Source: Haloarchaeobius amylolyticus
GTDB taxonomy: Archaea > Halobacteriota > Halobacteria > Halobacteriales > Natrialbaceae
Assembly (NCBI RefSeq): GCF_026616195.1
Contig: NZ_JANHDH010000002.1
Coordinates: 186,001-250,000 of the forward strand
Direction: 5' to 3'
Length of the DNA stretch: 64,000 bases
A model generated the notes under the pieces. It worked only from the letters and a program-made list of their open reading frames with translations, was not told where the DNA came from and ran no database searches. This document shows positions 26,164-44,685 of the stretch, piece by piece. How positions within the stretch are numbered: the stretch's first letter is position 1; each line of letters begins with the position of its first letter. A program made the translations under genes and the position numbers.

Positions 26164-29100
26164 CAGTCGTCCCCTATCGCGGTTTCGTCACCACCAGCGG
26201 CTCGCATCTCAACTTGGCTGGTGTTGGTTTCCTCATCGATAGTGATTCTGCACTCGTGGTCGGCGCCGTGAATCAGGCTTTCGTCGTGGCTGACGACGAT
26301 GACCTGTGGGACATCCCAGCTTCTGATTGTATTGAGCATTTCCTCGAGTTGGCCGACGTGGCCCTCGTCGAGGAAGGTGGTCGGTTCGTCGAGGATGAAG
26401 GGCGGGAGTTTGCCGCGGTCGCCGCCCTCGAGTTCGGCAATCAACCGGTAGATGCCGGCGCGGAGGGCGAGATTGACGATCGCTCTCTCGCCGCCGCTGG
26501 CGTTGCTCGGGTCCTCCAATTCGCCGTCATTGCGCAGGAGCTTCAGGTCGTACTGGAGGTCGCTCTTGTTCTCTACCTCGCGGATGACGACTTGCTGGTA
26601 GCTGCTGTTCTTGTAGACCTCGTCGAAGATTTCGTTCGTGTACTCACGCAGGTACCCGAGGTATTGCTCGCGAAGTTCCGACTTGGAACTGCGATAGGCA
26701 GCGAGCATCGTGTCGATCTCGCCGATGACTGCGTCTGCCCACTGGTACTGGCGTTCGTAGCGATCAATATCCGCCTTCAGGTCGCGCAGGCTCTCCAGGT
26801 CTTTCTCCAGCGATATCCGCTGGTCGCGAAGCTCCTGGATTTCCGATTCGTAGATTTCGACTTTCCCTTCCAGTTCCTCGATGCGTTCATCGAGTTTGTC
26901 GCGGTCGTCGCGCAGACTGTCGACATCGGTGTCGCCCAGTTCTTCCTCGAGAGCCTCTTTCTCACTCTCCAGGGTACTGATGCGCTGGTTCAGGTCCTGT
27001 ATTCGCTCATCACAGTGGGCGACTGTTTGCTCGTGGCGATCGATGTCGTTCTGTAGGGCGTCGATCTCGTCGTACTTGTCTTGGGCGTCACCGACGCGTG
27101 ACCGGATTTCCTCAATCTCATCGACGCGTTCCTCGGCCTCCTCGAGTGCCGCCTCTTTTTCCGCAACCGTCTCCTCCTGTGCTTCAATCTCGGCCTCCAG
27201 TTCGTCAATCGTCTCATGGACGTCCTCGATCTCGTCTTCGAGATCACCGATGTCCTCTTCCAGGTCTTCGACCTCGTCTTGGAGCGTATCGACCGTGTCC
27301 CGTTGCTCTTCGACGTCGTCGAACGCATCGAGAACCGTTTCGCCAGCGTCAACCTCTGCTTCGAGTTCTTCGACCTGCTCACTCAGTTCAGACTCCTCTT
27401 CTTCAAGCGACTCAATCTCGTCTTCCAGCTCAGAAATGAGGTCCTCCAGCTCGCTGATGTCGGACTCTAATTCGTCAACACGGTCCTTAGCGTCGTCTAC
27501 CTCGCCCTGTTTGTCGTCACGGGCGCTTCGCTTCTCCTCGAGTACCTCGTCGCGATAGTTGATTGCGTCACGAACGTCGTCGAGGAGGTCGTCGAGAGCC
27601 GTGCGTTCGTTCTCGAGGTCGGTCTTTCGATTGCGCTTCTCGTCAAGTTCCTCCCGAACGTGAGCCAGTTCGTCCTCATAGTCCTCGATTTCGTCTTCGA
27701 CATGGGACTCGTCCACGTCCTGGCCACATTTGGGACACTTGTCCTGGTCGCTGAGATTCTGTACTTCCTCGATGTCTTCTTGGAGCTGCTCTTCCCGGGT
27801 TTCCAACCCGGCAATCGATTCACTAACCAACTCGATTTCAGACGTCAGTTCATCCTGTTTCCCAGGGATACGTTCATCTCGAACCTCGGCCAGACTATCT
27901 GCGGTAATCTCCACCGCGAGAGAGTCGCCCTCCTGCTGAAGGCCCTCAACGCGACTGTGGAACTCTTCCTTTGCGGTCTCAACCTCGGACTCCAACTCCT
28001 CTAGCGCCTGCTCACGCGAATCCCGCTCATCACGCGCCGTTTCGAGGTCAGACTCGGTCTCCTGAAGTTCCTCCTCTTTGTCCTTCAGGTCGTCTCGCGT
28101 TTGTTTGAGCTCTGTCCGGACTCTGGTGAGTTCTTTGTCGGCTTCCTCGCGTTCGTCATCGAGTTCGTCGACGCGTGCTTCAACCTCTTCGCGAACGCTC
28201 TCGTCAACCGCGTCGGCCGGTGTTTCGGGGAGGAACTCTGCTGCTTTTTCGTTGCGTGCAGTAACGCGGCGCTGCAACTCGTCTTCCTCGCGAGACAGCT
28301 CCTCCTGCCTGTCCTCAAGCGTTGTCTCCTCTTCAGCGAGTTCGCTTTCAATCGACTCTAACTCGCCTTCTTCATCATCGAGGTCGCTCTCGAGACCCTG
28401 GAGGTTGTCATGGGCCGTCTCTAATTCACCGTCCCGCTTCGTGCGCTCCTGTTGCGCGTCAGTATACTCCTCTTGGACGGACTCGGCAGCGTCCTCAGCT
28501 GCAGCTGGCGTACTCAGGTCGTACTCGACGGCTTCGTCCAACTCGGTGATTCCATCTTCCAGTTCCTCGATTTCGGCGCGTTTGGCTTCGATGGCGTCTT
28601 GGGCATCTTGTTTCTCCTGCCGTTTCTCAGCCCGGGAACTCTCATCGTCCTCGATCTGGGACTTCTTCTCTTCCTTCTTTTCCAGCGTTTCCTCGTACGA
28701 CTCGATTTTCCCCTCCAGGTCGCTTCGTCGGTCATCCAGCTTGTCGATGAATTCCTCAACCTCCTCTTTCTCGCCCTCCTTCTCCTGAATCTCGTCAGTG
28801 AGATCGCTAATGTCGGCCTCGAACTGGGGCTCGTCTCGGTCGTACTTTTCTTCGAGTTGCTGTTCGGCCTTTTCTCGATAGTTCTCGTTATCGCGTCGAA
28901 TGCGCTTCGCGCCCCGTTTCGCGCCCTCCATCTTCGTGATGTACTCGTCGATTACGTCGAGGTTGAGGAGGCTGTCAATCAGCTCAGTCCGAGTGTCCGC
29001 ATCGATGAGCCGGTTGATCTCTCCCTGGCGGACGTAGACGCTGGCCGAGAAGTCGTCCTTGTCCATGCCGAGAATCTTCTGGATCTCGTCTTTGACGTTG

Positions 29101-29447
29101 CTGACTTGACTCACCGGTTCGGAAAGCGCAGGAGAGGTGAGCGTCGCGTCGGGGCCCGTACTCGTCGTATAGAACGTCCACTCAACGGTGTAGTCAACCC
29201 CGTCGATCTCGAACACCAGTTCGACGTGGGCTTTGTCTTCGCCGCGGCGGACCAAGTCATCGAGGTTGAAACTCTGATTGCCGGCGCTGGTAATATCAGA
29301 CAAGAAGAGCCCGCCGAAGATCCCCATCAGGAGGGACGTTTTCCCTGCGCCGTTGTCGCCGTGAACGAGGATCGTTCCTTCCGGGAACTCGACTGTCTGG
29401 TTCTCGTAACTGCGGATGTTCTGGAGGGTCAGTTTCTTGATTCTCAT
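26163..29447 (-). CDS. rad50: Rad50 ATPase with zinc hook
   Basis: A 1094-residue SMC-like protein. Walker A is HGDNGAGKTSLLMGI at residue about 30. A coiled coil of about 750 residues, rich in Glu/Asp/Lys/Arg, is broken at its centre by the zinc hook CPKCGQDV. The C-terminal lobe has the signature NASGGERAIVNLALR and Walker B PPFILDEPTTFLDEG. With Mre11 it forms the DNA-end-processing complex. It overlaps mre11 by 4 bases and nurA by 1. Confidence 0.95.
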   Translation of the reverse strand: MRIKKLTLQNIRSYENQTVEFPEGTILVHGDNGAGKTSLLMGIFGGLFLSDITSAGNQSFNLDDLVRRGEDKAHVELVFEIDGVDYTVEWTFYTTSTGPDATLTSPALSEPVSQVSNVKDEIQKILGMDKDDFSASVYVRQGEINRLIDADTRTELIDSLLNLDVIDEYITKMEGAKRGAKRIRRDNENYREKAEQQLEEKYDRDEPQFEADISDLTDEIQEKEGEKEEVEEFIDKLDDRRSDLEGKIESYEETLEKKEEKKSQIEDDESSRAEKRQEKQDAQDAIEAKRAEIEELEDGITELDEAVEYDLSTPAAAEDAAESVQEEYTDAQQERTKRDGELETAHDNLQGLESDLDDEEGELESIESELAEEETTLEDRQEELSREEDELQRRVTARNEKAAEFLPETPADAVDESVREEVEARVDELDDEREEADKELTRVRTELKQTRDDLKDKEEELQETESDLETARDERDSREQALEELESEVETAKEEFHSRVEGLQQEGDSLAVEITADSLAEVRDERIPGKQDELTSEIELVSESIAGLETREEQLQEDIEEVQNLSDQDKCPKCGQDVDESHVEDEIEDYEDELAHVREELDEKRNRKTDLENERTALDDLLDDVRDAINYRDEVLEEKRSARDDKQGEVDDAKDRVDELESDISELEDLISELEDEIESLEEEESELSEQVEELEAEVDAGETVLDAFDDVEEQRDTVDTLQDEVEDLEEDIGDLEDEIEDVHETIDELEAEIEAQEETVAEKEAALEEAEERVDEIEEIRSRVGDAQDKYDEIDALQNDIDRHEQTVAHCDERIQDLNQRISTLESEKEALEEELGDTDVDSLRDDRDKLDERIEELEGKVEIYESEIQELRDQRISLEKDLESLRDLKADIDRYERQYQWADAVIGEIDTMLAAYRSSKSELREQYLGYLREYTNEIFDEVYKNSSYQQVVIREVENKSDLQYDLKLLRNDGELEDPSNASGGERAIVNLALRAGIYRLIAELEGGDRGKLPPFILDEPTTFLDEGHVGQLEEMLNTIRSWDVPQVIVVSHDESLIHGADHECRITIDEETNTSQVEMRAAGGDETAIGDD

Positions 29448-30625
29448 TCTGCCACCTCCTCGGTAGTGTCGCTTTCGTCGTCGCTGAACGCTTCGTTCTG
29501 GGCCTGTTTGATGTCTTGCTCTATCTCGTCGGCAACATCGTTCTTGTTGTTCGGCAGGCCCTCGTCGCCACGAACCCGTTTGTCGATTGAGAGGGCGGTC
29601 TCGCTCAGGTCCTTGCCGGCGATCTGTTCGTCGATGATTTCGTCTGGGTTCTGAACGTCACCCTCGGGACCACCACCGAGGTCGAGTTCCTGCCGACCGC
29701 GGTCGTCCTTGACTTTGGCGACGGCGGCGCCACGGTCCATCACGGCGCTGTAGACGTCGCTAGACGTCAGGGCGGTGCGTTCGCCGCGAAGGGTCACGTG
29801 TGCGACTTTGTCCCCAAGGTCGTACTGGTCGAGCACATCGTTGAGACGACTGTGCGCGTCGCCCTCGCTAAACTCGATTGAGATTGGGGCGAACTCGCGC
29901 GTGTCCAACTCGCGCTTCCGTCGCCGAATGGAACCGTCTTCGATTTCGAGCAGACTCACGCTCCGCGGTTCTTCTTCGCTGAGACTACAGCGTTCGGTTG
30001 AACCAGCGTACCAGACCGGAACGTCGTCGACTATGTCCTCTTCCGGCTTGTGGTAGTCGCCGAGAGCAAGCGCGTCCAAGCCGATCCCGACGCGGTCGAG
30101 CACTTCCTCGGTCGAGTGGTCAGCCATGAAGTCTTCTGACCCGGGAATCGGCGGTGCGAGCAGTTGATGCATACAGAGGAGCGTGAACGCATCTGAGTCC
30201 TCGGGTGGCTCAAGGGTGAAGTCCTTCGAGTGCCAAGACGGTTTGGTGACGGAATCGATACCGTAGACGGCAACGTCGCCGCCAACTATCGTCGGTTCCC
30301 GAGAGAGGCGTTCAGCAGTCCCTGTCTCGCGAATGAGGTCGAGCCACTGTTCGTCCATCTTGCGGTCGTGATTCCCGACGATACCATAGAACGGAATGTC
30401 TGCCTCGTCGAGCTTCCGCAGCGTCTGAATGCAGCGAGTGACTTCGGGCAGCGAAGGTGTTCGACTATCGAACAAATCACCCGTATGAATGACGGCATCG
30501 ACGTTCTCGTCCACAGCGACGTCGATTGCCTGATCAAAGGCCTCTGCCATATCGTCTTTCCGTACGTCACTTCCGTACTGGCGATTCCCAAGGTGTGTGT
30601 CGCTGACATGGAGGAGCGTCGTCAT
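29444..30625 (-). CDS. mre11: Mre11 nuclease
   Basis: A 393-residue protein from the ATG at 30,625 (MTTLLHVSDTHLG). Phosphoesterase motifs are HVSDTHLGNRQYG, IHTGDLFDSR, GIVGNHDRKMDE, MHQLLAP and LALGDYHKPE, so all metal ligands look intact. It forms the nuclease subunit of the Mre11-Rad50 complex. First gene of the operon, and its promoter lies between it and the att-like repeat at 30,724. Whether the host also has a core mre11-rad50 cannot be seen from here. Confidence 0.95.
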   Translation of the reverse strand: MTTLLHVSDTHLGNRQYGSDVRKDDMAEAFDQAIDVAVDENVDAVIHTGDLFDSRTPSLPEVTRCIQTLRKLDEADIPFYGIVGNHDRKMDEQWLDLIRETGTAERLSREPTIVGGDVAVYGIDSVTKPSWHSKDFTLEPPEDSDAFTLLCMHQLLAPPIPGSEDFMADHSTEEVLDRVGIGLDALALGDYHKPEEDIVDDVPVWYAGSTERCSLSEEEPRSVSLLEIEDGSIRRRKRELDTREFAPISIEFSEGDAHSRLNDVLDQYDLGDKVAHVTLRGERTALTSSDVYSAVMDRGAAVAKVKDDRGRQELDLGGGPEGDVQNPDEIIDEQIAGKDLSETALSIDKRVRGDEGLPNNKNDVADEIEQDIKQAQNEAFSDDESDTTEEVAE

Positions 30626-30723
30626 TGATTTTGTATCAGACACAAATACATTCGCACGTGATAAGGGTTCGCGAACCAAGGCGAAAGTAAAGTTAGGATT
30701 ACGGCTCCTCCCTGAACAGGATT

Positions 30724-31679: not shown

Positions 31680-31766
31680 CCGAGGCGGGGGCATCGGTTA
31701 AAACATCGGTGCGTACAAATACCTTCAAGTGGTTTCCGCTTGGGAACACTAATAAGAGACTATAGA

Positions 31767-33251
31767 ATGAGTACCGATAATCTAGAAGTTGCGAAAACTG
31801 GACAAGAGAAAGGAGAGTCCGTTTTCGACAACCGCTCACTTGCAGATATCTACGGAGAAATACAGGACACTTACCTAGCGGATGACCGTCCTTGGGTCAT
31901 TGGGTACAGTGGCGGCAAGGACTCAACCACTGCCCTCCAGCTAATTTGGTACGCTATCGAAGATCTCCCAGAGAATAAAAGAGACAAGCCAATCCATGTT
32001 ATCTCAAGTGATACCTTAGTCGAAACTCCGAAGATTGTCAACCACATCATCTCCACTCTCGAAAATATCAACGAATATGCAGAAAAGAAAAATCTACCTT
32101 TCACGGCTCACAAGGTCACTCCCAAGGTCGACGACTCATTCTGGGTTAACCTGATTGGCCGAGGCTACCCAGCACCGAACCAGAACTTCCGCTGGTGTAC
32201 CGAACGCCTCAAAATCGACCCTGCTGACCGCTTCATCGAGAACAAAGTCTCCGAACACGGTGAAGTCATAGTCGTCTTGGGAGCACGCAAAGCAGAATCA
32301 GCCACCCGCGAGCAGGTGATGGAGATGCACAGCATCGAAAGCAGCGTGCTCTCCCGCCACAACAAGTTCGCTAACGCCTTCGTCTACACCCCCATTGAGG
32401 ATTGGATCGTCGATGACGTTTGGACGTACCTCATCCAGGCTGTCGAAAACCCGTGGGGCAAGAACAATAGAGACCTTGCAGCCCTCTATCAGGAAGCCGA
32501 CGACGAGTGCCCTATGGTGATCGATACGAAGACCCCGTCCTGCGGGAACAGCCGGTTCGGTTGCTGGACATGCACCGTCGTCTCAGAGGACAAGGCTATG
32601 CAAAACATGATCGACGAGGGCGAGGACTGGATGGAACCCTTGCTGGAGTTCCGTGACTTTCTCAAAGAAACCCAAGACCCGGAGAAGAAGCCGAAATTCC
32701 GGCAAGTAAAGGGCCGTCAACACGGCTACGTCAAGGAGAAAAACAACGGCAGCGATGGCATCATCCCCCGTGCCCACAAGTTCGAGTTCTGCAAAGATCT
32801 GCTGCGCAAGCTTCTGGAAACGCAGAAAGAAGTCAACGAGGGTCTCCCTGGAGACGAAGAGATGGAGCTGATTCGAGAGGAAGAACTCAGAGAGATTCGC
32901 CGTCTGTGGCGTGAAGAACGTGCAGACTGGGCCGACTCCGTGCCACGGATCTACAACGAGGTCATGGACAACAACCTCAACTGGGTACACGACGACCTCG
33001 GCTCCTTCGGAGAGATGGAAGCAGAAGTTCTGAAAGACATCTGTGAGGATCACGATGTACAACCAGAACTTATCAAACGCCTGCTCGACACCGAGTTCCA
33101 GCACTACGGAATGAAACGCCGGGCCTCCATTTACAGCGAGATAGACAAAGTCATGAGAGAGGACTGGCGCGATCTGGAAGAAATCGTTGCAGAGATCGAA
33201 GGAGAGGACCGGATAGAAGCCTGGCAGTACGACGGTATCGGAGGAAGCTGA
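31767..33251 (+). CDS. dndC: DNA phosphorothioation sulfurtransferase DndC
   Basis: A 494-residue protein from the ATG at 31,767. It has an ATP-pyrophosphatase PP-loop (GYSGGKDSTTALQL at about residue 50), WCTERLK, and a later CGNSRFGCWTC. The last group and the WCTERLK cysteine make the 4Fe-4S site expected in DndC. DndC activates the DNA backbone with ATP and supplies sulfur to replace a non-bridging oxygen. It heads the dndC-dndD-dndE-dndA operon, with a 9-base gap to dndD. A TATA-like stretch lies upstream. Confidence 0.95.
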   Translation: MSTDNLEVAKTGQEKGESVFDNRSLADIYGEIQDTYLADDRPWVIGYSGGKDSTTALQLIWYAIEDLPENKRDKPIHVISSDTLVETPKIVNHIISTLENINEYAEKKNLPFTAHKVTPKVDDSFWVNLIGRGYPAPNQNFRWCTERLKIDPADRFIENKVSEHGEVIVVLGARKAESATREQVMEMHSIESSVLSRHNKFANAFVYTPIEDWIVDDVWTYLIQAVENPWGKNNRDLAALYQEADDECPMVIDTKTPSCGNSRFGCWTCTVVSEDKAMQNMIDEGEDWMEPLLEFRDFLKETQDPEKKPKFRQVKGRQHGYVKEKNNGSDGIIPRAHKFEFCKDLLRKLLETQKEVNEGLPGDEEMELIREEELREIRRLWREERADWADSVPRIYNEVMDNNLNWVHDDLGSFGEMEAEVLKDICEDHDVQPELIKRLLDTEFQHYGMKRRASIYSEIDKVMREDWRDLEEIVAEIEGEDRIEAWQYDGIGGS

Positions 33252-33260
33252 AGGTACTTT

Positions 33261-35288
33261 ATGAGAATAAATAAACTGGAAATCACGGACTTTGGACCCT
33301 ATCGTGGTCCCAACGAGATCACTCTCTCATCAAGTGACGACTCTCCTATTGTCCTGTTCGGCGGGAAAAATGGGGCGGGGAAAACCACTCTGTTTGAGGC
33401 CATAGGATTCTGCCTACACGGGAAATCTTCACTCGGCCGCCGCACCGCCAGAAAGGACTACGAACAGACTATCCGAAGTAAACTCCACGAATATCCTGAC
33501 GGAAAAGCAGACGAAGCCTCAGTTCGTCTGGAGTTCGAGTACGCCCACATGGGCGAAGTTGACCACTACTCGGTCGAACGCTCTTGGCGAGACAGAGGTA
33601 AGAGCATCGTCGAGAACCTGGAGGTTCGGAGAAACGGGCAGATACCCTCTGAGCTGAACGAAGACCAGTGGCAGGACTTTCTCAAGGAACTTGTCCCGCC
33701 CGGCGTCTCACAGCTGTTCTTTTTCGATGGCGAGAAAATTCAGGAACTCGCATCCGCAGTTGAATCTGACGCCGACTTCGAGGACTCGATGTACTCCCTC
33801 TTAGGTTTGGACCTAGTCGAACGGCTGGACACTGACCTCTCCATCTACATCTCCCGCAAGTTGGATGAAAGCGGGGTCGAAGGTATCAAAAACGAACTCG
33901 AAGAACTCAGAGAAGAACGAGTCGAGTTTGAGCAGGAACTCAAAGACCTCCAGCAGGAGAAGGAGGAGAAAAAAGAGAGGCTGCAGGAACTGGATTCAAA
34001 GATCGAAAACAAAGAAGCCAAAATCGCTCAGGAAGGTGGATCATATGCCGAAAAGCGGGGAGAGCTGAAAGAACGTCGGGCAGAACTCAAAGCCAGTATT
34101 GAACAACGCGAGGACCAGATCCGGGAAATCGCCATGGGTGCATACCCGTTTACCCTGGCACCCGATCTGTGTGAGGCCGTAGTTGACCGGCTCAAGACTG
34201 AGACAGAACGGCAGAACAAGGTAACTGCCAGAGACGAACTCACTGACGAACTCAACGATGTTCTCGGAGATAATGATGTCTGGCAGGAAACCGATGTTCC
34301 TGAAAACCAGATCGGGGAAGTCGCTGAACGTATCAAGCGAAAGCTCCAGGGACGTCTTGAGATCGATGACGAAGAGCCAGAACTTGCACACCAGTTCTCC
34401 GAAGCACAACGCCAGGAAATCTACTCTCTGGTGGACAAGGCCCTACACAATGTTCCGCAGCAGCTGTCAGAGGCAACTGAAGAACTGGAAGAAGAAACCC
34501 GAGAACTTCAGGAAGTAGAAACTGGCTTAGGCAAAGCACCTGATGAAGAACTCATCTCCCCGCTTATCGATGACCTCAACGAGCTGACGGAAGAGAGAGG
34601 TGCGATCAAGTCTCAGCTGGAAGAACTCGAAGAAGAGACCAGTAAGACACAGACAAAGCTCGAACGGAAAGAAAACGAGATCGAGAACAAACTGGAGAAG
34701 AAAGCCCGTGTCGAAGATGTCTCCGAACGGGCAAACCTAGCTACAGACGTACGTGACGCAGTTCAAGACTTCCGAGAACAACTTGCCAAGGAAAAACTCC
34801 GGAAACTGGAGAGCAAACTCAGTGACCGGTACATCACTCTCTCCAACAAGGGCGATTTCTACGACGAGATTGAGATAGACGAAGACACCCTTGACATCTC
34901 CATCAAGACCATCCACGGCAACAAAAAGCCGCACACCGAGCTTTCCGCGGGTGAACGACAGATATTCGCCACCTCTCTACTCTGGGCGCTAGCAGATATC
35001 TCCGACCGCCCACTTCCGTTCATCGTCGACACGCCCCTTGGACGCCTCGACAACGACCACCGGGACAACCTCATCACGCACTTCTTCCCCGAAGCAGCTC
35101 ACCAAGTCATCATTTTTTCTACCGACACGGAAATCGACGACAGCCAGTACCAGAAACTAGAGGGATACATCTCCAATGCCTACCACCTCGAATACGACGA
35201 AACAGAAGGCCGGACCATTCCCTCGAAGGGCTACTTCTGGGGCGACGATGACGAAAACCAGCAGTCCCTGGAGGAGATCACCTCATGA
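33261..35288 (+). CDS. dndD: DNA phosphorothioation ATPase DndD
   Basis: A 675-residue SMC-like ATPase. Walker A is GGKNGAGKTTLFEAI near residue 40. A coiled coil of about 350 residues lies in the middle without a zinc-hook CxxC. The C-terminal lobe has LSAGERQIFATSLLWAL and the DndD-type Walker B FIVDTPLGRLD. DndD works with DndC and DndE on target DNA. It overlaps dndE by four bases (ATGA). Confidence 0.95.
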   Translation: MRINKLEITDFGPYRGPNEITLSSSDDSPIVLFGGKNGAGKTTLFEAIGFCLHGKSSLGRRTARKDYEQTIRSKLHEYPDGKADEASVRLEFEYAHMGEVDHYSVERSWRDRGKSIVENLEVRRNGQIPSELNEDQWQDFLKELVPPGVSQLFFFDGEKIQELASAVESDADFEDSMYSLLGLDLVERLDTDLSIYISRKLDESGVEGIKNELEELREERVEFEQELKDLQQEKEEKKERLQELDSKIENKEAKIAQEGGSYAEKRGELKERRAELKASIEQREDQIREIAMGAYPFTLAPDLCEAVVDRLKTETERQNKVTARDELTDELNDVLGDNDVWQETDVPENQIGEVAERIKRKLQGRLEIDDEEPELAHQFSEAQRQEIYSLVDKALHNVPQQLSEATEELEEETRELQEVETGLGKAPDEELISPLIDDLNELTEERGAIKSQLEELEEETSKTQTKLERKENEIENKLEKKARVEDVSERANLATDVRDAVQDFREQLAKEKLRKLESKLSDRYITLSNKGDFYDEIEIDEDTLDISIKTIHGNKKPHTELSAGERQIFATSLLWALADISDRPLPFIVDTPLGRLDNDHRDNLITHFFPEAAHQVIIFSTDTEIDDSQYQKLEGYISNAYHLEYDETEGRTIPSKGYFWGDDDENQQSLEEITS

Positions 35289-35686
35289 GCCAGAAGTTCA
35301 ACCGCATCACGATAGGTAACGACGCCACCAATCGGTTGAAAATGTTGAAAGCCAACACCGGCATGACGCCGAACTACCTGTGCCGGATCGGGTTCTGCTA
35401 CTCCCTGAACGAACCACGGCCACCAAATCCGGAAGAATACGACAACGAGGGCCAGACGTTCAACCGGTACACCCTCCTCGGAGAACACGACGCACTCTAC
35501 ATGGCCCTCCTGAAGGAGCGGCTAATCCAGGAAAACAAAGATCCTGAAGAGGATTTGTACGATGAGTTCGTCGCACACCTCAACCGAGGAGTGATCAGAG
35601 TCCACGGCAACGTCAGAGACCTAACCGATCTCGAAGATTTGGTACCCGGTGAAGTGAAAGGGAAGCACGCACAACAGGAAGGATAA
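35285..35686 (+). CDS. dndE: DNA phosphorothioation protein DndE
   Basis: A 133-residue protein, as expected for DndE, with the family-like N-terminus RITIGNDATNRLKMLKANTG followed by TPNYLCRIGFCYSL. DndE binds nicked DNA and supports the sulfur transfer complex. It is coupled to dndD by a four-base overlap, and to dndA with a one-base gap. Confidence 0.92.
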   Translation: MSQKFNRITIGNDATNRLKMLKANTGMTPNYLCRIGFCYSLNEPRPPNPEEYDNEGQTFNRYTLLGEHDALYMALLKERLIQENKDPEEDLYDEFVAHLNRGVIRVHGNVRDLTDLEDLVPGEVKGKHAQQEG

Positions 35687-35687
35687 C

Positions 35688-36866
35688 ATGACTTCTGACG
35701 TGGAAACTCCCATCTACCTCGACCACCATGCCACCACCCCTGTAGACGAAGACGTCATTGAGGAGATGAAGCCCTACTTCATAGAACATTACGGGAACCC
35801 TGCGAGCGAAGACCACATCTACGGGGCCAACGCCAAAAGAGCGGTCAACGAAGCCAGAGAACGCATCTCAGAAGTGGTGAACTCCCGCCCCGAGGAAATC
35901 ATCTTCACCAGCGGAGCTACCGAATCCGACAACTTAGCTATCAAGGGAGCAGCCGAGTACGCGGCCAAACACGACAAGGGGAACCACGTCATCACAGCTG
36001 TCACCGAGCATGAAGCTGTACTCGAAGCCTGCGAAGCAATGGAAGAGAAAGGGTTCGCTGTTACATACCTTCCTGTCGACGAACACGGCCAGGTCGATCC
36101 CAGCGACGTAGAAACCGCGATCCGTGACGACACCGTGCTAATCTCGATTATGGCCGCAAACAACGAGATCGGTACCACCGCACCTCTCAACACAATCGGT
36201 GACATCGCCAAAAAGAAAGAGGTCTTCTTCCACACTGATGCAGTCCAGGCAATCGGATACCTCCCCATCGATGTTGAGGAAATGGGGATCGACCTGATGT
36301 CTATCTCCGGTCACAAGATCTACGGGCCGAAAGGCGTCGGAGCACTCTATGTCCGCCGCAGAAATCCAAAGGTGAAACTCGAACCTTTGCTTCACGGCGG
36401 CGGGCACGAACGAGGCTGGAGATCTGGTACGCTCAATGTACCGTCTATCGTCGGGTTTTCAAAGGCAGTTGAGATGGCCGACAAGAACATGAAGGAACGT
36501 ACTAACCACGTGAATGCGCTCACCACCTATATGTGGGAACGATTCAACGACGAGCTGGACAATATCGTCCTGAACGGTCATCCGGAGAAACGGATACCCA
36601 ACAACCTGAACATTAGTTTCGCAAGCGTAGAGAACAAGGCCCTCGTCAAGAACCTGCAACCTGATATAGCAGTCTCAGCAGGTTCGGCGTGCACCACGGG
36701 CCAGGTAGAAGCCTCACACGTCCTTCAGGCCATCACCGAGAACGAAGCCAGGTGGCACAACGCAATACGATTCGGCTTCGGGAAAGACAACACCAAAGAA
36801 GAGATTGAGTACGCCACCGACGAAGTAATCAAGATAGTTAACAGACTCCGCAACCTGTCCTTCTAG
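35688..36866 (+). CDS. dndA: cysteine desulfurase DndA
   Basis: A 392-residue class V aminotransferase-fold desulfurase. PLP lysine lies in MSISGHKIYGPKG, and the substrate His in FHTDAVQAIGY. The persulfide cysteine loop is SAGSACTTGQ. It feeds sulfur from cysteine to DndC. Its position in the dnd operon separates it from housekeeping IscS-like enzymes. Final gene of the plus-strand modification operon. Confidence 0.95.
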   Translation: MTSDVETPIYLDHHATTPVDEDVIEEMKPYFIEHYGNPASEDHIYGANAKRAVNEARERISEVVNSRPEEIIFTSGATESDNLAIKGAAEYAAKHDKGNHVITAVTEHEAVLEACEAMEEKGFAVTYLPVDEHGQVDPSDVETAIRDDTVLISIMAANNEIGTTAPLNTIGDIAKKKEVFFHTDAVQAIGYLPIDVEEMGIDLMSISGHKIYGPKGVGALYVRRRNPKVKLEPLLHGGGHERGWRSGTLNVPSIVGFSKAVEMADKNMKERTNHVNALTTYMWERFNDELDNIVLNGHPEKRIPNNLNISFASVENKALVKNLQPDIAVSAGSACTTGQVEASHVLQAITENEARWHNAIRFGFGKDNTKEEIEYATDEVIKIVNRLRNLSF

Positions 36867-36933
36867 AACTGTAGCGTGGCAAAAACAAGTCTTTGTATGT
36901 ATCGATGGCGGTGGAGATTCAATCCATCAATTA

Positions 36934-37075
36934 CTATCTCTCTTTTACTTGAAATTCGCTGCTGCATTCCTTGCACCGATATTTCTCGGGATGCTCAACT
37001 AGCTTCGATTTTCGATATCTCGTAATTTAAGACTCACAACTCCTGCAGACGACCAACCATCTCGCCTCTGTAAAC
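36934..37075 (-). pseudogene. zinc-ribbon remnant with in-frame stop
   Basis: On the minus strand, WLVVCRSCES is followed by a TAA, then the same frame continues as LVEHPEKYRCKECSSEFQVK to a TAG at 36,934-36,936. Two CxxC pairs spaced about 25 residues apart look like a zinc ribbon broken by one nonsense codon. No start codon was found in frame. The reading is tentative. Confidence 0.35.
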
Positions 37076-37089
37076 ACCTCACAATATAA

Positions 37090-37359
37090 TTAAGTATTCA
37101 GTCTCTCCGCCCACTCCTTGAATCTCGAGCCGTGACTCGTATCGTTCTCCGTATTCAACAGATGGACGTTGATTAGTTCGTGACGAACAGTTGAGACTGT
37201 ATCAACCCCACTGTTTTGCTTGAAGTAATTTCCGGTGACACTTTTCACGGTCGGATCTCCATCGACATACTTGACAACACCAATGCGGCCTTTTGATCTC
37301 AAGGTAACCTCACATGTTAAGGAACCAATATCCACATGTAACCCGTACTCACGCACCAC
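37090..37359 (-). CDS. small hypothetical protein with operator-like palindrome upstream
   Basis: An 89-residue product from the ATG at 37,359. It is beta-rich near the N-terminus (HVDIGSLTCEVTLRSKGRIG) and ends with RHELINVHLLNTENDT and a charged helix. No family was recognised. A perfect 8-bp palindrome lies 13 bases upstream of its start. It may be regulatory, but this is not shown. Confidence 0.45.
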   Translation of the reverse strand: MVREYGLHVDIGSLTCEVTLRSKGRIGVVKYVDGDPTVKSVTGNYFKQNSGVDTVSTVRHELINVHLLNTENDTSHGSRFKEWAERLNT

Positions 37360-37475: not shown

Positions 37476-38429
37476 TCATAGCTCGGTTTCTACAAACGAT
37501 GGGTAATAGCGATAGACTTTCTCGTACATTTCCTTTTTTTCATCAGAGATCGGTACTTCGTTACTGATCGGGTCACCAGGAAGTGCCTCGTCGAGAGACC
37601 TCGCTTCAACAAGGGTCAGGTTTGGATTCTCGATCTGGAAGAGGTCTGAACCCTTTTCAACGAACTCGAATTCCTCAAAATTCGCTTTTTCTATGGAATC
37701 CACCATGCTCTCGGAATATACCACACCGCCAAACGTCATCATTTTCGCATTATCCTCATATTCGAAATTTACTAATTGTTGGAATTTTATTTGCTCGTCT
37801 TCCGCCACACCTTTATTCCTGGGTCTGAGGTAATATGATTCGATAACATTAGATAGGATCTTCTGGTAAGTCTTCGCTTTTCCGTTGCCGAATAAATCAG
37901 AGTCACTGATAGTATCAGGGATGTTATCGGCACCAACCTCTTTTTTCAATCGGTCAAGGCGGGATTCATCTTCTTCTAACCCACTGTCCTTATCTGGCAC
38001 AGCGTTCAAAGTGGTGAAAAAGAAGCTGCCCGGTGGAGCCTCAGAAAAGAACACCTGGAATTCGTTGTCTATCATAGACTCTTGTAGACAGGTCTCGTAG
38101 TCCAACCAAAGTATCGTAGGCTTGTCCCAGTCAATTTCTGAGAGCGCATCCTTCGAATCTTTCAGTATGAGATCGATACAACTGTATGGTGTATTAAACT
38201 CAAACCGTTCCTTGTCTTGGAAAACACGCTCTATACTCACCATATCATCGATCCCATATTCTTTATGCAGTATCCTGAATTCACTGAAAAAGATTGACCC
38301 AAAACCGATGTACCGGTAGTCCCGATGTGGATGAAGATGAACTGCTCTCTGTAAAAGTTCAGCCAACATTTTCCTTTCAATACTCTTCGCAGGCCTCAGC
38401 CTGAAATTGATATCATCATAGGACGGCAT
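37476..38429 (-). CDS. partner of GHKL ATPase, possible methyltransferase-like fold
   Basis: A 317-residue protein. N-terminal FRLRPAKSIERKML is followed by RYIGFGSIFFSEFRIL and DMVSIERVFQ, a glycine-containing loop and acidic strand end that could be a SAM-binding Rossmann fold. PTILWLDYETCL may be the active-site strand. No firm family call can be made from sequence. It starts 3 bases after the GHKL gene stop on the same strand, so the two form an operon embedded, in reverse, in the dnd-pbe cluster. Confidence 0.6.
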   Translation of the reverse strand: MPSYDDINFRLRPAKSIERKMLAELLQRAVHLHPHRDYRYIGFGSIFFSEFRILHKEYGIDDMVSIERVFQDKERFEFNTPYSCIDLILKDSKDALSEIDWDKPTILWLDYETCLQESMIDNEFQVFFSEAPPGSFFFTTLNAVPDKDSGLEEDESRLDRLKKEVGADNIPDTISDSDLFGNGKAKTYQKILSNVIESYYLRPRNKGVAEDEQIKFQQLVNFEYEDNAKMMTFGGVVYSESMVDSIEKANFEEFEFVEKGSDLFQIENPNLTLVEARSLDEALPGDPISNEVPISDEKKEMYEKVYRYYPSFVETEL

Positions 38430-38432
38430 GCT

Positions 38433-39779
38433 TTATCTCTCTACCTGATCTGAATAGAAGTATTCAAACGTCTCAACGCCTACCTCCTTGTACGTTCCAA
38501 CCCCCAACACATCTTTGATGTCCTCAATCTTGTCCTTGGGCCTGCTATAGTTGATATACCCAACTTCATCCTCCTCTTCAACTTCTTCAGGATTTGGGGC
38601 TGTGAAATCTCGTTCCTCACTGGTATCCATTTGATTAACATCAACGTACTCCCCGGAGTCGATTCTTTGTTCAATTGGAGAACTCTCACCCTGCCCCAAA
38701 TTCATATCTGATTTCTGATTACTAACTTCTCGTAAGAAATTGAACACAGATCGAGTTACTGAAATCATTCTCTGTTTTCCTCTCTGATACACACCTGAAT
38801 CAGGGTTTATGTCTGTTTTCGTTGTATTCCATGGTAGCGCGCCCGGATCAGAGCTCTTGAAATTTACCATGCCTCGAAAACGGGCAAAGTCGTTGTGATA
38901 TTTCGGTAGGGGGTCCCCCCAACCGGTCATTTCTGATTGATCCGCTTCAAGCACCAGCCGACCATTACAAAAGACGTACCAACCAGCCTTGTTTGGGTCA
39001 GCTTCTCCTAAACCTGCTCGGATATCAACTTCAACTTCTTCTTCTTCGCGCTCGAAAATAAAGTTTTGAAAAGCGGGTTTGAAGTCATCATCCTCCAGCA
39101 TCTCCAAAGGAGAGTAACCAAGTCCCTCGTTGTTCAGAATGATTTCTAAGCTTCGGTTGAGAAACATACTAAATTCGGATGTCAAATGGCTTCGCAGCTT
39201 GGAGATGAAAAGATTGTCTCCAAAATTCTCTCTTGGGGACTCGTGTAAGTCTGTGATCTGGATCCTTGTCCCCGTCTCGTCCAGAGTGCAACGGGGATCA
39301 TCTTCATCGATAGATTCCCCAGTGAAATTCCAACCATCGTGTTGTTTCCACTCTTCCGAATCAATCTCTATAACATATCTTTCGTTATTTCCGTGGTAGT
39401 AAGTTTCCAGGAGGAAGTTTTTTCCGAGCCGGAAAAATGAGCGTTTCATTCCGACACCAAATTTCCCTATCTTGGATGGCAGATCTCCCCCCTCCATATC
39501 AGGTCTGCCAAATCGGAATGCATAGTCCTCAGCGAGATCTCTTGGAATGCCGCCACAATTGTCCTTAATGGTGATTTCATCAGAATCCGCATCAATCCGC
39601 ACATAGAGGCCAGATAGATCCTCTTCATCATCTGCAATTCTTGTAGCCCCGTCAATGCTGTTATCCACGAACTCTGGAATGGTGTCGATCAACTTCACGT
39701 CCCGAGTGATGATTTCGATAAAAAACTCTTTGACCGGATGGGCGTCGATATCAAATGTCCCTGAGTCTGAATCGCTCAT
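38433..39779 (-). CDS. GHKL (MORC/Hsp90-like) ATPase
   Basis: A 448-residue protein. The Bergerat-fold boxes are all visible: N box EFVDNSIDGA (about residue 40), G1 box DNCGGIPRDLAEDYAFRFG, and G2 box GKFGVGMKRSFFRLG. A later TGTRIQITDLHE completes the pocket. The C-terminal third is acidic and of unknown fold. MORC-like GHKL ATPases linked to restriction-modification loci are known from comparative genomics (Iyer, Abhiman and Aravind 2008). It precedes the unknown 317-residue partner. Confidence 0.8.
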   Translation of the reverse strand: MSDSDSGTFDIDAHPVKEFFIEIITRDVKLIDTIPEFVDNSIDGATRIADDEEDLSGLYVRIDADSDEITIKDNCGGIPRDLAEDYAFRFGRPDMEGGDLPSKIGKFGVGMKRSFFRLGKNFLLETYYHGNNERYVIEIDSEEWKQHDGWNFTGESIDEDDPRCTLDETGTRIQITDLHESPRENFGDNLFISKLRSHLTSEFSMFLNRSLEIILNNEGLGYSPLEMLEDDDFKPAFQNFIFEREEEEVEVDIRAGLGEADPNKAGWYVFCNGRLVLEADQSEMTGWGDPLPKYHNDFARFRGMVNFKSSDPGALPWNTTKTDINPDSGVYQRGKQRMISVTRSVFNFLREVSNQKSDMNLGQGESSPIEQRIDSGEYVDVNQMDTSEERDFTAPNPEEVEEEDEVGYINYSRPKDKIEDIKDVLGVGTYKEVGVETFEYFYSDQVER

Positions 39780-40100
39780 GCTTTCTTCTTAAATAGGGTC
39801 TCTCCGTGCTACTGTAAAAATACTTTGCCAGTTATAGACAATCAAACGAAGTCGATTGGATTCCGTTTGCGTTCCTCTTTTAGGGTGAGATTCCCTAACC
39901 GTGATCTACGAGCTGTTCTTCCTGATCATCTCTATGGCAAGAGGTGTTCTGGATTCCAGTGGAGTCATCAATTACCCTCTCCAGATCTGTTTCAATAGGA
40001 CCATCTGAGTTTGAGGTTTTGCCTCACGATAGTTAAGATCAGCCGCACTTGGGGCCTGTGGGAAAAATTCAAATACCTACTAGCTATTGCTAGATTTCAG
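39780..40100 (+). other. divergent promoter region between GHKL gene and pbeA
   Basis: No ORF with start and domain features was seen; the longest frame runs into pbeA in phase (from 40,011) but lacks conserved-looking sequence. A TATA-like caaatacct lies near 40,070, about 25-30 bases before the pbeA ATG. A T/A-rich stretch near 39,815 may serve the minus-strand GHKL gene. Both promoters are inferences from spacing. Confidence 0.5.
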
Positions 40101-42074
40101 ATGGTAAGTTCTGACAAGGGGCTAAGAGACTTGGATCTCCCCGACGTCATCGAAACCTCTGACGTAGACTTTGCTGAGGAATTTTACAACCCTGCCCTTA
40201 GTGTCTCGGTAGAGTACAAGCGAGGTGTCGGCTACTTTACCAGCAATTGGTTTAAGCACGCTTCAAGAGGGCTGAAGGGTCTCGCGGAGAACGAAGGCAC
40301 CGCCAAGTGGATAATCAGTCCAATACTGGAGGAAGAGGACTGGGAAGCCCTTCAGAAAGGGGAGGAAGCTAAACGAAGCCAGGAACTATACGACCGCCTC
40401 AAAAACTTGGTCTCCGACATTGAGGAGGGACTCGAAAAAGAGACCCAGAATACCATTGCGTGGATGATCGCTGACGGTCTTCTTGACATCAAGCTCGCAA
40501 TCACCGGGGAAAACCTCTCCGGCGACTTCCACGACAAATGGGGAATCATGCGAGACGCCAACGACGACAAAATTGCCTTTCACGGCTCCCAAAACGACAG
40601 CAGCAAAGGATTCTCAAACTACGAATCCTACACTGTCTTCATTTCCTGGGACTCCGAACGCGAAGCAAACAAATTGGCAAAGCACGAGAGACGGTTCGAC
40701 GATATCTGGGACAACGCCAAACGAGGGGTGTACAGCCTCTCACTGCCTGACAGTATCTCCCTCAACATAGCTGAACTACGGGATGACGACCGTCCCTACG
40801 ACAACCCCTCTGAATCAAGGAAACTGACCAGCGCCTACCGCTGGCGTCACCAAGAAGTAGCAGTGAACAAGTTCCTGGAAAACGGTCACGGCATCCTCGA
40901 CATGGCCACCGGAACCGGGAAAACCCGGACCTCCCTCAAAATCCTGAACCGCCTGCTAAGACAGGACGCCGTAGAGAACATCGTCGTCGCCACCCGAGGA
41001 AACGACCTCCTTGACCAATGGTACGACACCCTATCAGAGAGCTTCAGCGCAGACGAAATGTGGATCTACCAGGAATACGACGGCGACCACGACCTCAGCC
41101 AGTTCTTGACCAAGAACCGTGACAAGTTGGAAGCCCTGATCATCTCCTATGATAACCTACACGAAGTAATCGAAAACGATGTCAACAACAAAATCCCTCG
41201 AAGCCTGTTGATCGCGGACGAAGTCCACAACATCGGTAGCGACACACGACAAGCCAACTTGACCGGAAAACTCGAAGCCTTCAAACACCGGCTCGGCCTC
41301 AGCGCCACACCCTTCGACCCCTACGACCCGGACAGGAACGACTTCATACGAGACGAAGTAGGGCCCGTCGTCTACGAGTTCTCCGCCGAAGACGCAATCA
41401 AAAGAGGAATCCTCACCGAACTCGACTACACACCGCTCTTCTACGAACTCTCAGAAGAGGACAAGGAAGAGCAAAAAGCAGCGTTCGGCAAATACAGCGG
41501 CTTGAAACAGCAGAATCCGAACATCCCGAAAAGCCAGCTGTACATCATGCTGGCTAAGGTCCGGAAAACCTCCGAGGAGAAACTACCTGTCTTCCGAGAA
41601 TACCTGGAGAACAACCCTGAAATCCTCGAGGGCTGCCTCATCTTCGTCGAGACAAAGGAGTACGGGCACAAGGTCCAGAAAATCATCCACAACCACACCA
41701 AGAGCTACCGGACCTACTACGGGGAAGACCCGGAGGAAACACTCGAAGCCTTCTCAAACGGCGATATCTCCACCCTTGTCAGCAGCAAGGCAATCTCCGA
41801 AGGCATCGACATCAAATCCGTGAAGAACATCATCCTGTTCACATCCAACCGTTCCAAAGGAACCACCATCCAGCGCATCGGCAGAGCACTCAGAACGGAT
41901 CCTGATAACCCTGGGAAAACAGCTAACATAGTTGACTTTGTTGTCAGGAGTGACATCGAAGAAGAACCTGAGGACAACGAAGACGATGAGGATGACGAGG
42001 TCGACATACCCCCGGACAAGATTCGGTACGACTGGCTCAACGACCTCAGCAAAGTTTCAAAGGAGGAAAACTGA
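40101..42074 (+). CDS. pbeA: PbeA-like PLD-domain superfamily II helicase
   Basis: A 657-residue protein from the ATG at 40,101. N-terminal 230 residues form a phospholipase-D-like nuclease domain (FHDKWGIM, then GSQNDSSKG). The helicase follows: Walker A DMATGTGKTRTS, DEVH box LLIADEVHN, GLSATPFDP and motif VI IQRIGRALR. Archaeal phosphorothioation defence of the DndCDEA-PbeABCD type pairs modification genes with four restriction-like genes; position and content fit PbeA. The name is assigned by order and domain, not by alignment. Confidence 0.8.
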   Translation: MVSSDKGLRDLDLPDVIETSDVDFAEEFYNPALSVSVEYKRGVGYFTSNWFKHASRGLKGLAENEGTAKWIISPILEEEDWEALQKGEEAKRSQELYDRLKNLVSDIEEGLEKETQNTIAWMIADGLLDIKLAITGENLSGDFHDKWGIMRDANDDKIAFHGSQNDSSKGFSNYESYTVFISWDSEREANKLAKHERRFDDIWDNAKRGVYSLSLPDSISLNIAELRDDDRPYDNPSESRKLTSAYRWRHQEVAVNKFLENGHGILDMATGTGKTRTSLKILNRLLRQDAVENIVVATRGNDLLDQWYDTLSESFSADEMWIYQEYDGDHDLSQFLTKNRDKLEALIISYDNLHEVIENDVNNKIPRSLLIADEVHNIGSDTRQANLTGKLEAFKHRLGLSATPFDPYDPDRNDFIRDEVGPVVYEFSAEDAIKRGILTELDYTPLFYELSEEDKEEQKAAFGKYSGLKQQNPNIPKSQLYIMLAKVRKTSEEKLPVFREYLENNPEILEGCLIFVETKEYGHKVQKIIHNHTKSYRTYYGEDPEETLEAFSNGDISTLVSSKAISEGIDIKSVKNIILFTSNRSKGTTIQRIGRALRTDPDNPGKTANIVDFVVRSDIEEEPEDNEDDEDDEVDIPPDKIRYDWLNDLSKVSKEEN

Positions 42075-42077
42075 CCC

Positions 42078-42266
42078 ATGGCAAAACCAGAAGTCGAAGA
42101 AATCGTTGAAGAGGTAATGGAAAAACACGGTCAATCAGACGTGGTCAAGGAGAGATTCCTGAACTTCTACGAAAACGCGATAGAGGAAAACTTCGGCGGC
42201 AACGACCTGCAAGGACTGATTAACACAGTAGAACTCACCGAAGAGGAGAGACTCGATGGATCTTAG
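42078..42266 (+). CDS. pbeB: PbeB-like small protein
   Basis: A 62-residue, acidic, helical product (KPEVEEIVEEVMEKHGQSD). It starts 3 bases after pbeA and overlaps pbeC by 11 bases, so it is part of the same tight operon. Its identity as PbeB rests on order alone. It might be a connector between the PLD helicase and the ATPase. Confidence 0.6.
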   Translation: MAKPEVEEIVEEVMEKHGQSDVVKERFLNFYENAIEENFGGNDLQGLINTVELTEEERLDGS

Positions 42267-44214
42267 AATCACAGGCTTCCGGTACCACAACATCCGGGAG
42301 TTCAAAGACCTGGAAATCGACTTGACGCGAGACGGCGAGGACGCCCACCACATCTCGCTCGTCCAGATGCCTAACGGCACCGGAAAAACCACTACTATGG
42401 ACCTGATCCGGACTGTCCTCGTAGGTAAGGATTTGAGTAAAAACAAGGAAGGAGAGCTCACCGTCTCAAACCTGGAACCCGAGGACTTCGACGCAATAGA
42501 AGGCTGGTTCGAAGCTGACTTCAAATCCAACGACACCCCGTTCACCTTCCGTCTGGAACTTGACTACGAAACCTACGACCACCAGTACCGGACCATCACC
42601 CCCAGCGAAACTGGCGGCGGGGATATGCTCGGCCACTCCCTACCCAACCACGAACTGAACACGATCATCAACGAGTCCTTCGCCAACTTATTCGTCTTCA
42701 ACGGCGAGCTCACCCAAGACTTCATCCAAACCGGGAAAGACGAAGCCGAGAACGCCCTTAAAATCGTCAACTACCTCAACCGGATCGAGGATCAGAGGAA
42801 CAAGATCCCCCAAGAAGTAGAAGAAAAACAGAACGAGGAAGAGGTCACAAGCGTCAAAAGCGAATCCGGTTACCGCAACCTCAAGGGTCGACTAGATACC
42901 GCCCAGAAGAAACTGGAAAAACTGGAAGCGCGGGAAGAAACCCTTGAAACAGAAATCAGTGACCACGAAGACGCTATCCAGGACTTAGGTACAGAACGCA
43001 GCGAACTCTTAGCCGAGAACCAGGAGCAACTAGAGAAGGACCAGCGCCTGGAACGAGAAATCAACGAAGTCCGAGGCGAAATAGAAGACGCGACGGACGA
43101 ACTCCTAGAGCGGATGCGCTCTCCCAGTCAACTTCACAGAGACTTCCACGACGACATGGGAAAACTGGTGAAGAACATGAACATCATGGAGCTGCCGAAA
43201 CCCACCTCCCAAGAGTTCTTCACCGAGCTATCCAAACGCCCGAAATGCATCTGCGGCAGGGAAATCGACGAAGAACACGCCAAAACCATTCTGACCAACG
43301 CCGACCACTACCTTTCAGAAGAAGATATCGGCGTCCTCAATCTGCTCAAAGAAAACCTGCGAGGAGTACCCGACTTCGAGGACTATGAAGACAAGTTCGA
43401 GGAGTTAGATGATAAACGGGAGAAGTTGGAGCAGAAAAAGCAGGAGAAAGGCAGAGTCGACCTTGACGATCCGGACCTCAGCGAACGACTTGAGAAGATC
43501 ACCGAGCAGAAAGAAGAGGAGAAACGGCAGAAAAGACAGAAAGAAGAAGAGCTTCGTAAACTCACCAGCACCGACAAAAATGAGAGAGAAGAACTCGGTC
43601 TCGACTGGAAGAACAACATCCACCTCTGCCGCCAAAAAGTCCAGGAGCGGAAAAAAGAGGTTCGAGAAGCCAGTAACACCGTCAACTTCGGGAAGAAAGC
43701 AGACAAACTCGAAAGTATCTTCGACGAGTTTATCGACCGATACCTTAACGAACTCAAACATAATCAGATCGACGAAACCAACCAACGCCTGAAGAAAATC
43801 CTCGGCCTCTCACAAGTACAAATCGAGGCCATAGACAACTCCATCAGGATCAAAGGGAAAGAGGACGTCTCCGAAGGCCAAAGCCTCTCAATCGCCTACG
43901 CCTACCTCTCCACCCTGTTCGAGGACTCCGCAATCGATGTACCGTTCGTCATCGACAGCCCGGCGGTCAGCATCGACTACGAGAAACGAGCAGAAGTCGC
44001 ACCGATCATCTCCAACCTGTTCGATCAACTGGTGATCTTCGTAATCTCCTCCGAACGCGAACGCTTCGTCAGCGAACTCGATTCAGGCGACATCAAATAC
44101 TGTACCATCCACAAAACCGAGCAACCAGGCGAAGTCGAGAAAAGCCTGGACAAGGACTACTTCATGGACTTCCAATCCGAAACCGAAGAAGAACAACTGG
44201 AAGAGGTGGCCTGA
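42256..44214 (+). CDS. pbeC: PbeC-like SMC/Rad50 ATPase
   Basis: A 652-residue protein. Walker A is MPNGTGKTTTMDLI, then a coiled coil. A zinc-hook-like CICG lies at the apex (RPKCICGREI). The C-terminal lobe has VSEGQSLSIAYAYLS and Walker B VPFVIDSPAVSID, in which the usual acidic residue after Asp is Ser, as in related DndD/Rad50 variants. It ends directly before pbeD (TGA then ATG). Function as part of the Pbe restriction complex is inferred from the operon. Confidence 0.8.
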   Translation: MDLRITGFRYHNIREFKDLEIDLTRDGEDAHHISLVQMPNGTGKTTTMDLIRTVLVGKDLSKNKEGELTVSNLEPEDFDAIEGWFEADFKSNDTPFTFRLELDYETYDHQYRTITPSETGGGDMLGHSLPNHELNTIINESFANLFVFNGELTQDFIQTGKDEAENALKIVNYLNRIEDQRNKIPQEVEEKQNEEEVTSVKSESGYRNLKGRLDTAQKKLEKLEAREETLETEISDHEDAIQDLGTERSELLAENQEQLEKDQRLEREINEVRGEIEDATDELLERMRSPSQLHRDFHDDMGKLVKNMNIMELPKPTSQEFFTELSKRPKCICGREIDEEHAKTILTNADHYLSEEDIGVLNLLKENLRGVPDFEDYEDKFEELDDKREKLEQKKQEKGRVDLDDPDLSERLEKITEQKEEEKRQKRQKEEELRKLTSTDKNEREELGLDWKNNIHLCRQKVQERKKEVREASNTVNFGKKADKLESIFDEFIDRYLNELKHNQIDETNQRLKKILGLSQVQIEAIDNSIRIKGKEDVSEGQSLSIAYAYLSTLFEDSAIDVPFVIDSPAVSIDYEKRAEVAPIISNLFDQLVIFVISSERERFVSELDSGDIKYCTIHKTEQPGEVEKSLDKDYFMDFQSETEEEQLEEVA

Positions 44215-44685
44215 ATGTCATTCCGACTCAGCAAAGAGGCCAGAAGTTATTACGGCAACATAAACAAGAACAGCACCATCAACAAACTGGATACGGACTG
44301 GGACAAATACTACCTCTCCGCAATGGCTGGGATCAAAGCTCGGAGCCGGGTCCCTGACGACGAAGAACCTCCTGCAGAACAGGAGTTCGTCGACTATGTC
44401 ATCCAAAGCTACGAAGACCAGAAATACGAGATCTACGGGGCACTGATCGTGGCTGAGATTGAGCGCGAAGGGATTCCCTGGGGACAGAAAGAGGAAATCA
44501 AGCAGCTGATGCTCACCCTTCTGGACTCTAACACCAATACCCGACTCTCCAATGAAGGAACCCAGGCTCTCAACTGTTACGCGGAGAAAGGCTCCCGCCT
44601 AATCAGAAGCGAGATCATGCCTCCGCCGAAGCTGGACACTTTCCTTGAACGCTACTACGAACTCCTCGACGACCTCGGAGACTGA
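44215..44685 (+). CDS. pbeD: PbeD-like protein
   Basis: A 156-residue soluble protein, predicted mainly helical, with no catalytic motif recognised. It follows pbeC directly and ends the operon. Name assigned by gene order in the dndCDEA-pbeABCD arrangement. No further domain can be read. Confidence 0.65.
   Translation: MSFRLSKEARSYYGNINKNSTINKLDTDWDKYYLSAMAGIKARSRVPDDEEPPAEQEFVDYVIQSYEDQKYEIYGALIVAEIEREGIPWGQKEEIKQLMLTLLDSNTNTRLSNEGTQALNCYAEKGSRLIRSEIMPPPKLDTFLERYYELLDDLGD

Follow-up and report, generated by a model that had tools for sequence, protein, structure and literature searches.

Prokaryotic MORC ATPases were placed near cytosine methyltransferases, Vsr and helicases by a 2008 survey (Iyer, Abhiman and Aravind, PMC2292703), the text of which mentions neither dnd genes nor O-methyltransferases. 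The MORC ATPases of restriction-modification systems described there share with the gene pair analyzed here a GHKL plus S5 module, the MORC motif and cytosine methyltransferase neighbors, but the present MORC ATPase has a fixed partner, MT35 (the name used here for the PF20553, Methyltransf_35, partner protein), and switches between methylation and phosphorothioation. MORC-containing, modification-linked defense is already known, and the elements that appear new are the fixed MT35 partner and the interchangeable marking systems. A literature search with subscription papers, preprints and supplements outside its scope returned no description of the pair with interchangeable partners, and the terms MORC, GHKL, HATPase and O-methyltransferase are all absent from the main text of a 2024 reappraisal of phosphorothioation systems. 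GHKL ATPases also serve anti-phage defense in VcSduA, a Shedu protein with GHKL (PMC12137116), and in MzaB of the MZA system; VcSduA, unlike the pair, carries its own nuclease domain. Assignment of the ATPase studied here to MzaB was rejected, its score with the MzaB profile being 14.8 bits where 850 are required.

Two further systems resemble the locus in part. In class-1 DISARM, 16 deduplicated relatives of the pair lie between drmMI and drmA, within drmD-drmMI-pair-drmA-drmB-drmC operons, although the DISARM core as described does not include the pair, which only a minority of DISARM systems have added; DrmA occurs in 53 plasmid records but MT35 in just two, and in one of these two the pair is broken and lies outside DISARM. 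The DndCDEA-PbeABCD system (Xiong et al. 2019, PMC6459918) is complete in the window, the 64,000-nt stretch of Haloarchaeobius amylolyticus DNA under analysis, and the pair occupies its dndA–pbeA gap, yet the pair is not among the described parts of that system and is absent from six of eight haloarchaeal loci. A DISARM identity for the window pair was discarded, as no drm genes (drmA and drmB included) occur in the 41 kb examined.

The DNA-marking system adjoining the pair comprises dndC (31740–33251; TIGR03183, 567 bits; PADLOC DndC), dndD (33261–35288; TIGR03185, 498 bits), dndE (35285–35686; PF08870, E 1.4e-24; TIGR03184 above cut-off) and the cysteine desulfurase gene dndA (35688–36866; PADLOC DndA, 560 bits), all on the plus strand. 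The same strand carries pbeA, encoding an HKD nuclease-helicase (ORF 40011–42074, probable start ATG at 40101; PADLOC PbeA, 584 bits), a candidate pbeB of 62 aa placed by position only (42078–42266), the ABC ATPase gene pbeC (42256–44214; PADLOC PbeC, 92 bits) and pbeD (156 aa; 44215–44685), which has no profile match of its own in the window and is assigned by position and by homologues at the same place in other haloarchaeal loci. Specifically, dndC, dndD, dndE, dndA, pbeA and pbeC are confirmed with PADLOC or NCBIfam profiles. Between dndA and pbeA, on the strand opposite to both dndCDEA and pbeABCD, lie the gene for a GHKL (MORC-type) ATPase of 448 aa (38433–39779, minus strand; HATPase_c_3, E 3.6e-11), which is the first gene of the pair, and that for MT35 (317 aa; 37476–38429, minus strand). 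Both ORFs are intact and are separated by 3 nt (38430–38432), confirming the arrangement given in the preliminary description, an intact Bergerat-fold ATPase with a partner 3 bases downstream, oriented against dnd and pbe. PADLOC is without a model for either protein. The dnd-pbe locus lies in a low-GC stretch (about 50% versus 66–70% in the left flank), and other cytosine methyltransferase genes of this genome are on another contig.

Several recombinase-like genes, recognized by reading the sequence by eye, are located to the right of the dnd-pbe locus. Weak direct repeats at 36925–36940 and 39966–39981 (about 14 of 16 positions) were considered as insertion marks and set aside as likely chance. 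Between dndA and MT35, an 89-aa ORF (37090–37359, minus strand) resembles the end of an SprT-like protein (PF10263, E 4e-5, just under the cut-off) and is probably a remnant, and Rad50-like and Mre11-like genes (26163–30679, minus strand) are the near neighbors of dndC to the left and run opposite to it.

The ATPase displays the GHKL motifs common to its relatives, namely the N-box, DNCGGI, GxFGVGMKR and GT. Its MORC S5 motif, GWYVFCNGRLV, fits the published pattern GhXhhpXXRhl (PMC2292703), which bears out the earlier designation of a MORC-like GHKL ATPase; the pattern is met in 43 of 44 ATPase relatives and, by chance, in 0.25% of shuffled copies. When compared with solved structures, the ATPase profile retrieves human MORC4 first (E 5e-5), and in Foldseek the ATPase model (pLDDT 88.5) has Hsp90-type GHKL proteins as its top matches. 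Neither protein of the pair showed a nuclease domain. As the GHKL general base, the haloarchaeal copies have Glu (E36 in the window ATPase) and most bacterial relatives Asp.

The 317-residue partner, described earlier as lacking a firm family, matches PF20553 Methyltransf_35 end to end (residues 3–316; 310.9 bits against a curated cut-off of 27; E 1.3e-92), and that part of the description was wrong. The structure prediction that had been suggested for it, built on 43 relatives with one row from a plasmid record left out of the alignment, yields a model of mean pLDDT 90.6 whose strands are ordered as in class I SAM-methyltransferases. The proposed SAM-binding loop, YIGFGSIFFSEF, proves to be in the right place, directly after strand 1 of the predicted fold; the glycine-rich cofactor loop characteristic of class I SAM-methyltransferases is present as YIGFGS, and the residues invariant among MT35 relatives, E67, W108, D110 and Y111 among others, occupy the usual cofactor and substrate places. 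The top Foldseek matches of the model are mostly SAM-methyltransferases (best E 8e-6, probability 1.00), and their low TM-scores point to a distant branch of these enzymes; a sequence search against solved structures gave no match. No target-recognition domain is apparent, which makes sequence-specific DNA methylation an improbable role for MT35.

Relatives were collected from 84,980 species genomes, viral contigs, haloarchaeal genomes and plasmid records in a sample drawn from one conserved-motif scan, giving 57 loci, 56 of which contain an ATPase relative. After removal of near-copies and a split Sinorhizobium locus, all 51 deduplicated pairs are adjacent on one strand with the ATPase first (gaps of -55 to +98 nt), and the ATPase and MT35 protein trees correlate closely (Mantel r 0.94, a value to which shared ancestry alone adds). 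The pair is one co-inherited module with obligate pairing, and its arrangement goes beyond chance, since the GHKL and MORC S5 motifs are present and dozens of distantly related genomes keep the two genes together. Its carriers include bacteria, archaea, phages, prophages and plasmids. PF20553 is rare, occurring in 5 of 392 haloarchaeal genomes (one copy a fragment) and in 3 of 369 and 2 of 395 genomes of two bacterial classes, where sampling added almost nothing new.

Outside DISARM, the pair engages two kinds of marking partner. A C5-cytosine methyltransferase gene lies beside it in 22 deduplicated loci, within 40 nt in 17, and these enzymes keep the PCQ and ENV motifs except for one truncated at a contig edge. 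Another 12 deduplicated loci are of Dnd type, nine showing DndC or DndD and three only a DndA or PbeA gene at the contig edge. The pair is embedded in co-directional bacterial dnd operons with gaps of 3–15 nt, in the order dndC-dndD-dndE-pair in Allomuricauda (3-nt gap), dndC-dndD-dndE/HerA-Mrr-pair in Xylanibacter and dndCDEA-pair in Clostridium. Cytosine methyltransferase and Dnd occur together in none of the loci outside DISARM (P 4e-6 assuming independent loci, which these are not). The distribution requires six partner changes on the ATPase tree and eight on the MT35 tree, among them several gains or losses of the Dnd context, whose loci form partial clusters on the tree; even the four haloarchaeal copies divide into two with Dnd and two with a cytosine methyltransferase. 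The pair is tied to DNA-marking systems of unrelated chemistry and has switched repeatedly between them. The earlier view of a defense-associated pair is supported, in that nearly all relatives adjoin DNA-modification genes, and neither random positions nor a housekeeping partner was found, the single copy among metabolic genes being a broken, apparently degenerate MT35 (L024).

The haloarchaeal loci define how the pair relates to the Dnd–Pbe system itself. The same PbeA subfamily occurs in 8 of the 392 haloarchaeal genomes, and the pair is present in two of these dnd-pbe loci at different positions: in the dndA–pbeA gap of the window, which spans about 3.2 kb versus about 150 nt in one pair-less locus, and after pbeD in Halorubrum salsamenti. 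In the latter, the dndA–pbeA gap holds a TFIIB-like gene (L010, 3923–5143), and with different genes in the two genomes this gap looks like a site where genes are acquired. Presence in two of eight loci, at different positions, therefore identifies the pair as an acquired accessory and not as a core Dnd–Pbe part; it is no random passenger, nor does it belong to the system as a fixed third part. The suggestion in the preliminary description of a third functional part of the phosphorothioation system thus holds as far as repeated linkage to phosphorothioation genes is concerned, co-directional bacterial dnd operons included, but not as to specificity, most relatives being with a C5-cytosine methyltransferase or in DISARM. 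A survey of the kind that it had proposed, over the haloarchaeal dndCDEA-pbeABCD loci, finds the pair in only this minority.

That the pair is an independent defense unit merely gathering in defense islands, its linkage to marking enzymes functionally meaningless, appears distinctly unlikely. Its rarity, its mobility on phages, prophages and plasmids, and the two locations and divergent orientation of the haloarchaeal copies relative to dnd and pbe would all be expected of such a unit. However, the linkage is specifically to marking enzymes, at 0–40 nt, inside operons and in distant phyla; Dnd and cytosine methyltransferase exclude each other; and random island neighbors should be more varied.

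The smallest arrangement is exemplified by the Pseudomonas filamentous phage (inovirus) PfAC20, in which ATPase, MT35 and a cytosine methyltransferase lie in this order at one end of the 13.6-kb genome (L104, 280–3711), the methyltransferase being the sole marking enzyme carried with the pair. The paper describing PfAC20 reports only the methyltransferase, as an incomplete restriction-modification system (PMC11878078), and when the PfAC20 unit was searched against E. coli, matches were confined to a part of the cytosine methyltransferase. From such arrangements we infer, with about an even chance of being right, that the pair is a portable module that serves DNA-marking systems (C5-cytosine methyltransferase, Dnd or DISARM) as effector or partner and acts on DNA that lacks the self mark. 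Since the smallest units consist only of marker, MORC ATPase and MT35, any activity against unmarked DNA should lie in the pair; similarly, the PfAC20 marking enzyme makes sense only if another component targets unmarked DNA, and the pair is left for that role. In such a mechanism, a MORC dimer would load on or clamp DNA using ATP, MT35 would serve as its SAM-binding partner, either catalyst or sensor, and host DNA bearing 5-methylcytosine or phosphorothioate would be spared. Because the minimal three-gene units encode no nuclease, restriction would proceed without one of their own, through clamping or silencing, catalysis by MT35, or recruitment of a nuclease. Clamping is suggested over cutting by the behavior of eukaryotic MORC proteins, which entrap DNA, compact it and silence foreign elements (PMC8277788, PMC12216690). 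In the window, the mark read by the pair would be the phosphorothioate introduced by DndCDEA, and the pair would form a second arm beside PbeABCD. A more specific version, possible but doubtful, is a nuclease-free restriction-modification system in which a MORC clamp and an MT35 methyltransferase plug onto unrelated self marks (5-methylcytosine or phosphorothioate) and inactivate unmarked DNA, which would parallel, in prokaryotes, the silencing of foreign DNA by MORC proteins.

The phage-carried unit adjoining a methyltransferase, together with the absence of a nuclease, would also suit a guard-type arrangement, in which a toxic MT35 or ATPase is held back while host DNA is marked and is released by mark loss or by phage attack on the marking enzyme. 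Such an arrangement is highly improbable, given that no antitoxin-like gene is present and that the haloarchaeal pair could be gained beside Dnd without a dedicated inhibitor.

The close contact with marking enzymes admits a further, unlikely explanation, namely that the pair helps to mark self DNA fully, the MORC ATPase by remodeling or exposing DNA and MT35 by introducing a second modification or regulating the marking enzyme. The 17 loci in which the pair directly adjoins a marking enzyme and not a nuclease, the predicted methyltransferase fold of MT35, and the presence of the pair in Dnd loci that have their own effectors (PbeA, Mrr, HerA) are all in keeping with such assistance. It would, however, leave the three-gene phage unit and the haloarchaeal cytosine methyltransferase units without any effector; cytosine methyltransferases do not normally require helpers, and MT35 is without a target-recognition domain. 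The effector reading meets objections of its own: to handle marks differing in sequence specificity, the reader would have to be blind to sequence or make contact with the marking enzyme, the haloarchaeal pair is opposed to dnd and pbe and missing from most dnd-pbe loci, and the family is rare, sampled by one motif scan and, in its Dnd loci, partly clustered on the tree.

If the pair does sense that a self mark is missing, a single module would work with two unrelated DNA marks, and self/non-self discrimination would be separable from mark chemistry. It would moreover offer a simple prokaryotic test case for eukaryotic MORC proteins, the silencers of transposons and other foreign DNA, and would suggest a function for the Pfam family PF20553. 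Either the window locus or the short three-gene cytosine methyltransferase unit makes this reading directly testable.

Several individual loci depart from the common arrangements. Locus L060 is without the ATPase and looks degenerate, and L021, which stops at a contig edge, has no clear marking partner. Among Bacteroidota Dnd loci, a DndE-HerA/FtsK fusion is encoded at 3894–5474 of L036, and an Mrr-type nuclease lies directly upstream of the ATPase in L029 (7832–8623). In Nitrosospira, a diverged pair (L054, 8538–11848) has as its neighbor an N6/N4 DNA methyltransferase encoded on the other strand, possibly a fourth kind of marking partner.
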